Source of the DNA: a virus
Strand: one strand, 5' to 3'
Length of the DNA stretch: 51,378 bases
Virus record (IMG/VR): IMGVR_UViG_3300025168_000126
Span: 1 to 51,378 of that record
Shown here in pieces: positions 19,669-37,705 of the stretch. The notes beneath the pieces are model-generated. The model saw nothing but the letters and a program-made list of their open reading frames with translations, ran no database searches and was not told where the DNA came from. Positions within the stretch are counted from its first letter, which is position 1; each line of letters starts with the position of its first letter. The position numbers and the translations under genes were made by a program.

Positions 19669-19896
19669 TCAGTTGTCCTCCGTGAAGATACCGCTAGCGG
19701 CACAGAAATCTTCCCAGTTCTCATAGGTGATGGTGGAATCGGGATTGATGCAGAACGCACGAGCAGCGGATTCAGAGATCTGCTCTTCTGTACCGTTGTC
19801 GGTATTGACGATCATGAAGACTCGCGTACCATCGTCGTCGCAGACGACGACTTCGAGGAAGTTGTTGATCGGGTAGTAGTTGACGATGTTGTCCAT
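19669..19896 (-). CDS. Small acidic unknown protein
   Basis: 75 residues, MDNIVNYYPINNFLEVVVCDDDG, beta-rich and acidic. First gene after the promoter at 19945-19972, with a leader of about 40 bases. No family. Confidence 0.65.
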   Translation of the reverse strand: MDNIVNYYPINNFLEVVVCDDDGTRVFMIVNTDNGTEEQISESAARAFCINPDSTITYENWEDFCAASGIFTEDN

Positions 19897-19944
19897 GTTT
19901 GGTTTCCGTTAGGACCAGTGAGTCGTCCCCGCTGGGACATGTAT

Positions 19945-19972
19945 ATTATACCATACTCAGGCAGGAATGCAA
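19945..19972 (-). promoter_or_regulatory. Sigma70-like promoter
   Basis: TTGCAT (19967-19972), 16-base spacer, TATAAT (19945-19950) with GG before it. Drives the small-gene operon 19896 to 18509. Confidence 0.75.
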
Positions 19973-20008
19973 CCCATTGAAGGAATATTCCCAAAATTGG
20001 GGACAAAT

Positions 20009-20017
20009 TGTGGATAA
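20009..20017 (-). other. DnaA-box-like 9-mer
   Basis: Exact TTATCCACA on the minus strand in the gap between the 75-residue gene's promoter and the ParB-like gene's terminator. Isolated here; the same 9-mer occurs twice at 25.6-25.8 kb. Confidence 0.4.
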
Positions 20018-20074
20018 CTTTTAGTGCCTATTTGACGAAAAATGGGGGTTTTTGGCTTGACTGGCATTATCGGA

Positions 20075-20103
20075 CGAAAAGGAGGAGCCCGAAGGCCCCT
20101 CCC
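20075..20103 (-). terminator. Rho-independent terminator
   Basis: Minus-strand stem GGAGGGGCC, loop TTCG, GGCTCCTCC (one G-U pair), then TTTT. It ends the ParB-like gene. Confidence 0.85.
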
Positions 20104-24058: not shown

Positions 24059-25423
24059 TCAGAAGGGCGACGTTTCCGCAGCGGTGGGGTTGAACTGGTT
24101 CCAGAAGTCGGGATCCAGATTCACGGTCTCGGCATTGGTATGCCACTTTCGACGCTGATCGTCCCACTTCGCTCCACGGTTCTTCACTTCGTCCTTCTGG
24201 CTGAAGGAAGTGTCGAGGTACATAACCGTCGAGGGATCGAGAGTAGCAGTGTTCACGCTAGTGTCGATGGTATCATCGAGTTTCGCGTAGAAGTCGCGGA
24301 ATGCGACCTTCGTATCGTCATCGAATCGGTTCAGTGCCATATCGATGGCAGTCTCACGCGACTGGAAGATGGCGAACGCCTTGACCACGTTTTCGAGTCG
24401 GCGGGTGGTGATGATCTCATCAATGGCACCCTCGCGGAATGCTCGGCGGATCATGTCTGCCCATTCCGTGAGACGACCAGCGAAATCCTTGTCTTCGCAT
24501 CCGAGCGTCTTCATCTTCTTCAGAAGAATACGCTTCTCGGTACTCTTAGGAGCATATTCCTGCTCAAGAGTCCAATCGAATCGGTCGAGCATGGCTTCAT
24601 TCATGATATTCGTACCAGCGAATCGACCATCGTCGCTACCCTTGCCCTTCGTGTTCGCAGTGGCGAAGATTGTGAAACCAGCAGCGGGCTGCACCCACTC
24701 GTTAATCTTCTTCAGGTAGATACCCTTCCCTTCGAGAACCGACTGAAGACACATCATCAGATGCGTACCGAGGTCGATCTCATCGAGGAGGAGAACCGCG
24801 CCACGTCGCATAGCGTTGACCACGGGACCATCCTGCCAGACGGTCTCGCCGTTGATCAGGCGGAAACCACCCAGCAAATCGTCTTCGTCCGTGGCGCTGG
24901 TAATGTTGACGCGGAAACACTCACGATTGAGGTTCGCACAGGCTTGCATGACCATCGTGGTCTTGCCGTTACCAGACAATCCCGTAACGTACATCGGAGC
25001 GAACATACCGCTCTTGATCACGGTTTCTACCGTATCATGATGGCCCCATGAGACGTACGTCTTCAGACGATCGGGAACCAGACTAGCAGCGCCGGCGGTC
25101 ATACCACGAATGGCAGACAGTTCCGCAGTGACCGGGGTATCGTTACCCTTCGGAGCGGGGGCAGCAGTCTTCTCCGCAGCATCGAGCGCCATGGCTCGGT
25201 CGAATGCTTCAGCATTCTGCTCACCGATCGAGTCTTCGAGATTCGGGATGGTAAACCATCCACGATCGACGCGGAATTCGTCCGACTGGACGAGCCACGA
25301 AGGAGCGTACTTCTGGCCCATGCTGTTAGCGACGGCAACGAGGTCGCTACGCTTCGCAGGACTGGCAAGACCAGCGGCTCGACATGCATCGACGAATGCG
25401 GTTTGCTTCTTGGTGAGTTTCAT
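24059..25423 (-). CDS. cobS: CobS/MoxR-like AAA+ ATPase with C-terminal DUF5710-like domain
   Basis: 454 residues. An N-terminal domain (about 4-61) is shared with the gene at 23498. The AAA core has Walker A GLSGNGKT (148-155) and Walker B LLLDEID (211-217), followed by the sensor region TIFATANTKGKG and a helical lid. Residues about 402-432 read DTSFSQKDEVKNRGAKWDDQRRKWH, the DUF5710 pattern. T4-like marine phages carry this CobS-type ATPase, named after the cobaltochelatase subunit. Together with the divergent VWA protein it recalls MoxR-VWA pairs that remodel proteins. Cobalt chelation itself is unproven. Confidence 0.9.
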   Translation of the reverse strand: MKLTKKQTAFVDACRAAGLASPAKRSDLVAVANSMGQKYAPSWLVQSDEFRVDRGWFTIPNLEDSIGEQNAEAFDRAMALDAAEKTAAPAPKGNDTPVTAELSAIRGMTAGAASLVPDRLKTYVSWGHHDTVETVIKSGMFAPMYVTGLSGNGKTTMVMQACANLNRECFRVNITSATDEDDLLGGFRLINGETVWQDGPVVNAMRRGAVLLLDEIDLGTHLMMCLQSVLEGKGIYLKKINEWVQPAAGFTIFATANTKGKGSDDGRFAGTNIMNEAMLDRFDWTLEQEYAPKSTEKRILLKKMKTLGCEDKDFAGRLTEWADMIRRAFREGAIDEIITTRRLENVVKAFAIFQSRETAIDMALNRFDDDTKVAFRDFYAKLDDTIDTSVNTATLDPSTVMYLDTSFSQKDEVKNRGAKWDDQRRKWHTNAETVNLDPDFWNQFNPTAAETSPF

Positions 25424-25479
25424 TATCGGATGGTTCCGCTTGAGTCTTCGTTTTCGAGGATCATTTCCTCGACAGGTAA

Positions 25480-25507
25480 ATTATACCACAACCACGCCCC
25501 AAGGCAA
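25480..25507 (-). promoter_or_regulatory. Sigma70-like promoter of the CobS-like operon
   Basis: TTGCCT (25502-25507), 16-base spacer, TATAAT (25480-25485). It lies inside the left copy of the 33-bp inverted repeat. The leader to the ATG is about 50 bases with a weak ribosome site. Confidence 0.8.
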
Positions 25508-25512
25508 CCCAT
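25480..25512 (-). repeat. 33-bp inverted repeat, left copy (promoter)
   Basis: Perfect inverted match to 25777-25809, covering both -35 and -10 boxes and four bases upstream of them. The two copies face away from each other across 264 bases. Confidence 0.95.
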
Positions 25513-25589
25513 TCATGCGATATAAAGCCCAGATTGGTGAGATTTTGACGTAAACCCTTGCCGAATCAGCAGTTATGGGTCGAAAAGAG

Positions 25590-25756
25590 TTATCCACAAG
25601 GATATCGGACGTTCGGAGGGAGCGACTATAGAAGGAACGCGCCCGCACGCACGCGAATACCATAAAATTGGCTGCTTGTCAACCCGATTTCGACAAAAAT
25701 GGGAAAAATAGTCCATTTTTCACCGGATTTCCTTGGTTTTCCACATTTTATCCACA
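25590..25756. other. Candidate replication origin segment with DnaA-box-like sites
   Basis: Contains exact TTATCCACA at 25590-25598 and 25748-25756, and TTTTCCACA at 25737-25745, in an AT-rich stretch with no gene. All genes to the left for 25 kb read leftward (one exception) and those to the right read rightward for 18 kb (one exception). Function as an origin is inference. Confidence 0.4.
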
Positions 25757-25776
25757 TTTTGAGAAATATCTTCCGT

Positions 25777-25809
25777 ATGGGTTGCCTTGGGGCGTGGTTG
25801 TGGTATAAT
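25777..25809 (+). repeat. 33-bp inverted repeat, right copy (promoter)
   Basis: Right copy of the repeat at 25480-25512. It ends exactly at the -10 box; sequences diverge after it, so the conserved unit is the promoter itself. Confidence 0.95.
25782..25809 (+). promoter_or_regulatory. Sigma70-like promoter of the VWA gene (leaderless type)
   Basis: TTGCCT (25782-25787), 16-base spacer, TATAAT (25804-25809), six bases to the ATG at 25816. Confidence 0.85.
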
Positions 25810-25815
25810 ATACGC

Positions 25816-27930
25816 ATGAGCAACACGAAAACCATCCTCGCGGGTCTCCTCGCAACCGAAAATCTCTCGGTTGTGCATGATCCAGCCGCCCAGACTGCTT
25901 CCTTCGATCTCAAGAACCGAGTTCTTACGCTGCCAGTCTGGCAGGACATGTCGAACAGTCTGTACGATATGCTCGTGGGACACGAAGTCGCCCATGCCTT
26001 GCATACTCCGTGCGATGGTTGGAAGGATAACATTGAAGAATTGTCTTCGATGCATGGTCTTCCCTATGCTCACGTCCAGCAGTACGTTAACGTGGTCGAG
26101 GATGCACGAATCGAGCGATTGATCAAGAAGCAGTTCCCCGGACTGCGCCGAGACTTCCTCGATGCGTATGTCGATCTCATGAACCGCGATCTCTTCAGCC
26201 TCGAAGGTCGATCAATCTCCGACCTCGGTCTCATCGACCGACTGAATCTCGAATTCAAGGTGGGTATCCATGCTGGTGAGACGATTCCGTTCGCCCCTAG
26301 CGAAGTTCAGTGGATTGACCGAATCAAGTCTGCCGATACCTTCTCCGACGTTCTCGACATCGTGAACGACCTCCTCGCATCGATCATCGATGATAATGAG
26401 GAGCAGGAGCAGGAGCAGGAATCCACCGAATCCGAGTCGGGCGACGGCGACGGCGAAGGTTCGCCCGAGTCTTCCGACGATTCGGATGACGATTCGGGTG
26501 AGGATCAGCAGCAGGGCTCCGGTTCAGCCGGAGACGACGACACCGAAGACGGTGCCGATGCTGATTCCTCACCCGATGCGGGTGACGATGCATCCGACGA
26601 GGATGCTGGCCGGCAGGGTGCAAGCGTACCTGAGTCGATCACCGAACAGGCATTCTCGAAGGTTTCCGACGCTATGCGGGACGGAAGCGGCGCATCGTAT
26701 GATAGCGGCGAGAAGACGATGGAGCGGGTTGACCTCGAACGTCATATCATCGACTACAAGCGTTTCCATCGTCTTCTTGCTGGTTCGCTGCTGGTGAATG
26801 CTGCGAAGGAAACGAGCGATAGGGAATGCCGCCATTTCATCGTCCGATCCAAGCCCACGGTTAACGTACTGACGAAGCAGTTCGAGATGAAGAAGCAGGC
26901 AGATGCCCACAAGCGGGTGCAGATTGCCAAGACTGGTACTCTCGATACCGTGAAGATGATGAACTACAAGTGGTCCGAAGATGTCTTCCGCAAGGCAACC
27001 ACCGTCCGCGATGGTAAGAACCACGGGCTGGTTATGTTCCTCGATTGGTCTGGTAGCATGTGCGACCAGATTGTCGAAACGATGGAACAGGTCATGCAGT
27101 TGGTTCTCTTCTGCAAGAAGGTGAACATTCCCTTCGAGGTCTACGCCTTCACCAGTGCCATGCCGCACGAATTCGATGAGAATCGTACCGAGAAGTCGGA
27201 TAACGATGCATGGCAGGACACCGAGTACCGTTTCGCCCTGCTCAATCTCTTCTCCAGCCGCATGAACAAGCGAGAACTCGACGCTGCTATGCCGCAGTGT
27301 TACGCCCTCGCCAAGTCGCAGTCATGGAACTCCCGAAACCCGCTGCCGACCGTCGGACGCGAGTTCGGTCTTGGTGGTACTCCGCTCAACGAAGCGATTC
27401 TTGCTGCCATCGACATCGTTCCTTCCTTCAAGAAGAACAACAATGTCCAGATTGTGAACAGCGTTTTCCTCACGGACGGTAGCGGTAACGGGATGCACGT
27501 TCCTCACAACGGTACGCTCAAGATTGAGGGAGACCGCATCGGAACCCGCGTCAACCAGCAGAACGCCACGAACCTGCTCACGAAGATGCTTCAGGAGCGT
27601 ACTGGTTCCAAGGTCGTCAACTTCTTCCTCGCCGACTGGACTCCTGCGAAGTTCGAACGCCACTCCTACTACTACTTCCGCGACCACGATAAGATGTACG
27701 CGGGACTCGAAACGTGGAAGTCGGATAACTACGCTATCGCCACCACCGATAGCATGGGATGGGATGAACAGTACCTGATCCGCACCGTCAAGGTTGACAC
27801 TTCCGACGCGATGGATGCGGTCAAGGATACCGATACCACCGCCAAGAAGAAGAATGCTTTCCTTAAGAGCATGAAGGGTCGATCCACCTCCCGAGTCGTC
27901 CTCAACCGCTTCATCGACATGATCGCCTGA
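25816..27930 (+). CDS. CobT-like protein: HExxH metallopeptidase-like domain plus VWA domain
   Basis: 704 residues from MSNTKTILAGLL. LVGHEVAHALHTP (His56, Glu57, His60) with VNVVEDARIERL (Glu95) gives a zinc-protease-like site. A long Asp/Glu/Ser/Gln tract follows (about 195-260). Residue 410 on reads DWSGSM, the metal-binding start of a von Willebrand A domain, with a late Thr/Asp pair in LTDGSG. This order (peptidase-like, acidic linker, VWA) is that of CobT-like proteins that partner MoxR/CobS AAA ATPases. It is divergent from the AAA gene with an identical promoter. The ATG follows the -10 by six bases, so its mRNA is probably leaderless. The codon choice is more GC-rich than in the structural genes. 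Confidence 0.9.
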   Translation: MSNTKTILAGLLATENLSVVHDPAAQTASFDLKNRVLTLPVWQDMSNSLYDMLVGHEVAHALHTPCDGWKDNIEELSSMHGLPYAHVQQYVNVVEDARIERLIKKQFPGLRRDFLDAYVDLMNRDLFSLEGRSISDLGLIDRLNLEFKVGIHAGETIPFAPSEVQWIDRIKSADTFSDVLDIVNDLLASIIDDNEEQEQEQESTESESGDGDGEGSPESSDDSDDDSGEDQQQGSGSAGDDDTEDGADADSSPDAGDDASDEDAGRQGASVPESITEQAFSKVSDAMRDGSGASYDSGEKTMERVDLERHIIDYKRFHRLLAGSLLVNAAKETSDRECRHFIVRSKPTVNVLTKQFEMKKQADAHKRVQIAKTGTLDTVKMMNYKWSEDVFRKATTVRDGKNHGLVMFLDWSGSMCDQIVETMEQVMQLVLFCKKVNIPFEVYAFTSAMPHEFDENRTEKSDNDAWQDTEYRFALLNLFSSRMNKRELDAAMPQCYALAKSQSWNSRNPLPTVGREFGLGGTPLNEAILAAIDIVPSFKKNNNVQIVNSVFLTDGSGNGMHVPHNGTLKIEGDRIGTRVNQQNATNLLTKMLQERTGSKVVNFFLADWTPAKFERHSYYYFRDHDKMYAGLETWKSDNYAIATTDSMGWDEQYLIRTVKVDTSDAMDAVKDTDTTAKKKNAFLKSMKGRSTSRVVLNRFIDMIA

Positions 27931-37027: not shown

Positions 37028-37705
37028 ATGATGTATCAAGGTAACTTTACGCACGACATGGTAGAGGACATCGAGCCTCTTTCCACGGTGCAGGATGAAA
37101 CAGGTCGGTTCTACAATACGCCACATGGCAAAATGGCAAGCGTAACAACCGTTACAGGGTGGGAAAAGCAGAAGTTCTTCGCAAAGTGGAGACGGGAAAA
37201 CCCCGAAGAGTCTAAGCGTGTGTGTTCACGCGGCAACTATCTCCACGATGCGATTGAACAATATCTTCTCAACAACGAGGTGACAGAGGATCAACTGCCA
37301 GGTGGCAGTAAGTATCTCTTTGCACAAATGAAAGAAAGTTTAGACAAGATCAGCAAGGTTCGTGCCTTAGAGGCTCCTCTATGGAGTCAGGCTACGTCTC
37401 TCGCTGGTCGCGTTGACTGTGTTGCTGACTACGAAGGTGAACTATCGATTATCGACTTCAAGGGTTCGACTCGCAAGAAGAGAATCCGAGACATCGACAA
37501 CTACTTCATGCAGGCTACTGCTTATGCAATCGCATGGCAGGAGCGAGTGGAACAGCCAGTGAATCAGATTGTGATTCTCATTGCGTCGGAGGAGGGAACC
37601 AATCAGGTTTTCAAATCTACTCCACAACTACATACAAAGCCTCTTCTAGAGGCAATCAAGAAGTATAATCAACACTTCGCTCAACAACAGGGTCAACTAT
37701 GGTAA
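37028..37705 (+). CDS. RecB-like PD-(D/E)XK exonuclease
   Basis: 225 residues. RGNYLHDAIEQYL (His73), AGRVDCVADYEGE (Asp130) and IIDFKGS (Asp143-Lys145) give the PD-(D/E)XK nuclease order of the RecB/Cas4-type exonucleases found in T4-like marine phages. These are thought to act in DNA replication or recombination. Expressed from a leaderless-type sigma70 promoter in the middle of late genes, so probably early. Overlaps the DUF6267 gene by seven bases. Confidence 0.88.
   Translation: MMYQGNFTHDMVEDIEPLSTVQDETGRFYNTPHGKMASVTTVTGWEKQKFFAKWRRENPEESKRVCSRGNYLHDAIEQYLLNNEVTEDQLPGGSKYLFAQMKESLDKISKVRALEAPLWSQATSLAGRVDCVADYEGELSIIDFKGSTRKKRIRDIDNYFMQATAYAIAWQERVEQPVNQIVILIASEEGTNQVFKSTPQLHTKPLLEAIKKYNQHFAQQQGQLW

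Follow-up and report, generated by a model that had tools for sequence, protein, structure and literature searches.

Genes for a CobS-like ATPase and for a "peptidase" that is a CobT-like protein are genome neighbours in cyanophages, pelagiphages and haloarchaeal tailed viruses (PMC8651126, PMC3037559; PHROG 249 and 459). Tailed viruses widely carry the cobST cluster, which belongs to the cyanophage core; cobT is mostly mis-annotated as a peptidase, and the viral proteins have been proposed to recruit host CobN (PMC8651126). The two genes lie there in tandem on one strand, the peptidase followed by cobS. Leaderless mRNAs are reportedly frequent in phages (PMC5312081), and T4-type phages carry PeSL elements, which, as presented in a paper citing their original descriptions, are short promoter cassettes with stem-loops (Arbiol 2010 and Comeau 2014, via PMC4503421).

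The window, i.e., the whole stretch of 51,378 nucleotides of the virus record IMGVR_UViG_3300025168_000126, encodes the same two families as adjoining genes, with 392 bp from start codon to start codon. What differs from the known tandem pair is the divergent layout, with transcription predicted from two matched promoters. The locus contains the following features:

24059 to 25423, minus strand: CobS-like MoxR-family AAA+ ATPase of 454 aa with an extra C-terminal DUF5710 (PHROG 249, E 6.8e-101; Pfam AAA_5 and DUF5710)
25454 to 25473, minus strand: 5'-terminal stem-loop of the CobS-like mRNA at its predicted start (-9.9 kcal/mol, shuffle p 0.002)
25480 to 25512, minus strand: left arm of a 33-bp inverted repeat, the predicted promoter of the CobS-like gene (-10 TATAAT at 25480-25485)
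25590 to 25598, plus strand: DnaA-box-like TTATCCACA, kept in all five close genomes
25624 to 25667, no strand: central conserved non-coding GC-rich element GACTATAGAAGGAACGCGCCCGCACGCACGCGAATACCATAAAA (42 of 44 positions invariant in the five close genomes)
25654 to 25682, minus strand: possible third promoter, TTGACA-N17-TATTCG, directed towards the CobS-like gene (from sequence; same spacing in the distant members L020 and L023)
25737 to 25756, plus strand: tandem DnaA-box-like TTTTCCACA (25737-25745) and TTATCCACA (25748-25756), from sequence and comparison of close genomes
25777 to 25809, plus strand: right arm of the repeat, the predicted promoter of the CobT-like gene (-35 TTGCCT at 25782-25787, 16-bp spacer, TGG-TATAAT at 25804-25809)
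25810 to 25818, plus strand: the 6 nt between the -10 and the ATG at 25816, where the CobT-like mRNA is predicted to start without a leader (a distance of 6-8 nt in 12 of 13 genomes)
25816 to 27930, plus strand: CobT-like protein of 704 aa with an N-terminal HExxH...E, an acidic linker and a C-terminal VWA domain with MIDAS (PHROG 459 "peptidase", E 1.2e-181)

Homology and predicted fold support the proposal, made in a sequence-only reading of this DNA, that the two proteins are AAA+/VWA partners by kind. The ATPase is predicted to be nearest in fold to NorQ/CbbQ (Foldseek E 3.5e-15), and the CobT-like protein to the VWA domain of NorD (Z 16.8) and the MIDAS of MDN1 (Z 16.2), the AlphaFold models being of middling confidence (pLDDT 73.0 and 69.4). 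The best predicted fold matches of both phage proteins are found in NorQ-NorD, CbbQ-CbbO, CobS-CobT and the single-chain MDN1/Rea1, and the two probably form a remodelling complex of the NorQ/NorD or CobS/CobT type. The phage VWA protein differs from these MoxR AAA+/VWA systems by its invariant N-terminal HExxH...E. The site noticed at the first reading is real: H56-E-x-x-H60, followed by a DWSGS...T...D MIDAS. The gluzincin signature, HExxH with a further E downstream as the third ligand (H56, E57, H60, E95, E100), is present, the MIDAS is intact (DxSxS, T and D; D410, S412, S414, T522, D554), and all of these residues are invariant in 30 CobT-like sequences. No separate fold match was obtained for the half that carries HExxH, the list of structural matches being filled by the VWA domain.

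The curated models place the pair at some distance from the cobaltochelatase proteins. Against the NCBIfam CobS equivalog (TIGR01650) the ATPase scores 87.7 bits, far under the cut-off of 558.55 bits, and the CobT-like protein of the window (P0002) reaches a non-significant 10.3 bits against Pfam CobT (PF06213, gathering cut-off 26.1), which matches only one of the 30 CobT-like homologues (E 0.0015). By these cut-offs, neither protein qualifies as a genuine CobS or CobT. Searching the PDB by sequence with profiles of the VWA protein gave nothing useful, CobT reaching no better than E 1.4 with a match that lies outside the VWA domain. The DUF5710 of the ATPase lies at its C-terminus (24125-24223, minus strand, E 4e-8), and shorter cyanophage homologues seem to stop before it.

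A search for the paired arrangement in other phages, advised in the first reading, found the pair. It is in tandem order in 65 loci scored, including every cyanophage and pelagiphage locus scored, and divergent at the loci of the window's clade wherever the fetched stretch holds both genes, as well as in two MAG-derived members. The layout requires a single change on the tree of 30 proteins, the split having an SH-aLRT of 100 in this unrooted tree, and we take the tandem order, being the more widespread, to be the older one. The divergent layout therefore is, on the sequences compared, the mark of one clade, which is probably T4-like given that three long relatives (G007, G011 and G013) carry a Gp23-type capsid gene; this gene was not found in the window or in the other shorter records, which are possibly fragments. 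The CobT-like proteins of this clade are 38-63% identical across nine lineages. The first reading's view of T4-like phages as better known for CobS by itself fails for this branch, since cyanophages and pelagiphages have both genes, side by side, and cobST is reported as widespread and part of the cyanophage core (PMC8651126). A search for the host among genome contigs returned no close relative. Two distant members of the clade, L141 and L142, are on short contigs in MAG bins assigned to Latescibacterota and Phycisphaerae, bins that we do not trust as hosts.

The two promoters are the arms of a 33-bp perfect inverted repeat (25480-25512 and 25777-25809) separated by 264 bp. The arms are exact reverse complements, as first described, and belong to a longer pair of 48 nt with 88% complementarity (BLAST E 1.4e-12 for the match inside the record); on an estimate that treats bases as independent, about 1e-11 perfect repeats of 33 bp are expected in 51 kb. 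Both read TTGCCT-N16-TATAAT with TGG immediately 5' of the -10, i.e., an extended -10 of sigma70 type. The repeat had been said to cover nothing beyond the -10, which stands for the exact match, three of the next four bases being still identical. The pattern TTG-N15-TGNTATAAT had no match because the real spacing is different, and an Rfam search of 25000-26200 with E values up to 1 gave none either. The further idea that only the promoter was copied holds, from the aligned sequences, for the window together with the genome closest to it; it does not hold for the clade, as identity extends past the -10 in G010, G011 and L141, and G007 has 94 bp of homology upstream of the -10.

The likeness of the two promoters recurs across the clade. 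Left and right promoters of the same genome are identical at 30.6 of 48 positions (nine lineages). Between genomes the values are 23.5 for left with left, 23.4 for right with right and 23.4 for shuffled partners, an excess within genomes with P=4e-5 (9 lineages). Left and right are each other's best match among the sigma70-like sites in 10 of 11 genomes (Fisher P 1e-7, 8 lineages), far above the mean match to such sites of 15-19 of 48, although in G005 and G006 they barely exceed the next site; in G011 the match is best from the right side only, the left promoter having one better match elsewhere. Statistically, then, the promoters are shown to be kept alike within each genome while drifting apart between genomes. 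Their likeness covers the spacer and flanking positions outside the promoter consensus. In the five closest genomes, left and right promoters alike contain the core ATGGGTTGCC...TATAAT, apart from minor changes, and among these genomes the full identical tract (33-34 bp) is common to the window and G002 only. The spacers of the left and right promoters are unequal in three of these five genomes, so the two promoters need not be exactly the same.

G007 provides an unlinked case. This genome is nested in the divergent clade in the protein tree, and its two genes are about 99 kb apart, yet their promoters are reciprocal best matches of 325 sites. They share 94 bp of upstream homology, at 79% identity and ending at the -10, in a cassette found exactly twice in the record; the word TTCCTGATATC, which is confined to the two copies, is not independent of this homology. 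Unlinked genes with matched promoters favour, short of proof, selection for joint control, and the match could also be one of recent inheritance. Overall, the comparison of promoters supports matched or joint transcription of the two partners.

The module is present in the window a third time, in diverged form, with a gene behind it:

19941 to 20018, minus strand: third module, with TTATCCACA, a -35 region ATGGGTTGC, TATGGTATAAT and then the stem-loop GTCCCAGCGGGGAC (74% identity over 78 bp, E 3.6e-7)
19669 to 19896, minus strand: ORF of 75 aa with no assigned function, present in G001 and G004

The ORF was looked for in distant relatives and not found, being restricted to close ones. The word GTCCGATAA, which several distant members have in the intergenic region of the pair, occurs once in the window, beside this module (19669-20075). 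Since the third module drives another gene in the window's clade, promoters of this family do not serve the pair exclusively.

The stretch between the arms is itself conserved. TTATCCACA, the E. coli DnaA-box consensus, occurs there in five of nine clade lineages, the other four having no exact box, and this region accounts for half of the sites of this kind in seven records. On visual inspection, the central element can still be made out in L020 and L023, two members with CobT-like proteins of no more than 38-39% identity. The putative promoter in the centre of the intergenic region (TTGACA-N17-TATTCG) might produce a small RNA or an extended ATPase transcript. Some distant members have direct repeats with an 11-bp period ([CT]TAAC-N6-[CT]TAAC) that are almost absent elsewhere in their records. 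Taken together, DnaA boxes, central element and repeats hint at an additional layer of control, which may be exerted by DnaA or by a response regulator. The 11-bp repeats resemble PhoB/OmpR-type boxes and lie upstream of the pair in L024 (399-1080), L029 (4800-4980), L025, L028 and L022.

The two mRNAs are predicted to start very differently, transcription starts and leaderless status being read from the positions of the -10. With its ATG 6-8 nt past the -10, the CobT-like mRNA is predicted to be leaderless (ATG at +1). In a census of the window and its relatives G001-G013, the -10 and a following ATG are separated by exactly 6 nt at 24 of about 129 promoters, where about 3 are expected, with only a mild excess in tandem-layout controls; leaderless genes thus appear to be common in this phage clade. 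Predicted starts of this type lie at 590, 18485, 25816 and 37028 in the window, including that of an exonuclease gene (37028-37705). The resemblance to known leaderless phage mRNAs is the ATG at the predicted transcription start (PMC5312081); the difference is that here it is a recurring trait of a clade and that the partner gene has a structured leader behind a matched promoter. The CobS-like mRNA has a predicted leader of about 50 nt that begins with the stem-loop. A stem at this 5' end is found in 12 of 13 genomes with differing sequences, being absent in L142, weak in L141 and not above shuffles in G005; MAFFT placed the stems out of register, and each was judged singly against its shuffles, with no covariation count. 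PeSL is a promoter-terminator motif by the title of the 2014 paper; the stem-loop of the window, set against the definition available through the citing paper, lies at the mRNA 5' end, downstream of the start site, and has no U-run. Since the predicted 5' ends differ, equal promoters do not imply equal protein output, and equal expression of the two genes is doubtful. Of the equal and simultaneous expression proposed in the sequence-only reading, the joint transcription is in line with the likeness of promoters within genomes, including G007, while the equality does not follow, given the predicted mRNA starts.

We consider it probable that this is a divergent cobST-like pair whose promoters are kept alike by selection for joint transcription, with an unequal ratio of the two proteins. 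A tandem cobST-like operon would have become divergent a single time, in an ancestor from which a separate T4-like clade descends (the tree gives the single change, and we infer its direction). After this, each gene would have needed its own promoter. The likeness would have been maintained by selection for joint transcription by the host sigma70-type polymerase, with new copies arising when gene conversion or template switching wrote one promoter over the other, and the exact 33-bp repeat of the window may be such an event caught early. Outputs would be matched in transcription and not in translation, since one mRNA is predicted to start at its AUG and the other with a stem-loop and leader, which makes a fixed but unequal protein ratio likelier than an equal one. 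A bolder version, somewhat short of an even chance in our view, is concerted evolution of the two promoters by repeated copying, even across 99 kb, giving operon-like joint transcription without an operon and leaving the mRNA starts to set the protein ratio. Such copying might also be neutral: near inverted copies would undergo conversion again and again through template switching or recombination, and co-expression would not be under selection. That the likeness includes spacer and flanks outside the consensus agrees with this, and so does the single identical tract of the window and G002, but the match in G007 persists at 99 kb with its long upstream homology, and even allowing for a recent separation or long-distance conversion there we judge a purely neutral origin unlikely.

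It could be argued instead that all sigma70 promoters of one phage are alike, having been fitted to the host. TGGTATAAT and TTG are indeed common to other promoters of the window, and the third module at 19945 is close, but this idea is largely refuted by the mutual best matches and by the extension of the likeness into spacer and flanks, and we give it very little credence. More compatible with joint transcription is a region that mainly serves as replication origin or DnaA-controlled switch, around which the promoters would be symmetric. The enrichment of TTATCCACA between the arms and the conserved GC-rich centre point this way; gene orientation and GC skew also switch near here in the window, but skew follows the coding strand and is not independent, and we dropped it as evidence. 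T4-like phages replicate with their own proteins, and with four of nine lineages lacking an exact box we doubt that this is the main role of the region. As for function, a true cobaltochelatase accessory module, in which CobS and CobT borrow host CobN to raise the cobalamin supply, is a published proposal (PMC8651126) that draws on the AAA+/VWA architecture, the pairing and the CobS-like sequence similarity. The missed CobS and CobT cut-offs and the predicted folds, nearest to NorQ and NorD, make it quite unlikely here.

The pair occurs in hundreds of sequenced marine phages without a proven client, and its joint regulation in this clade would back the view that it is one machine. An identical promoter pair with opposite types of mRNA start may be useful to compare the output of leaderless mRNAs with that of structured leaders. 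The clade also offers a natural test of why the genes of partner proteins stay in operons: here the operon seems to have been lost and the likeness of promoters kept, even where the genes are unlinked.
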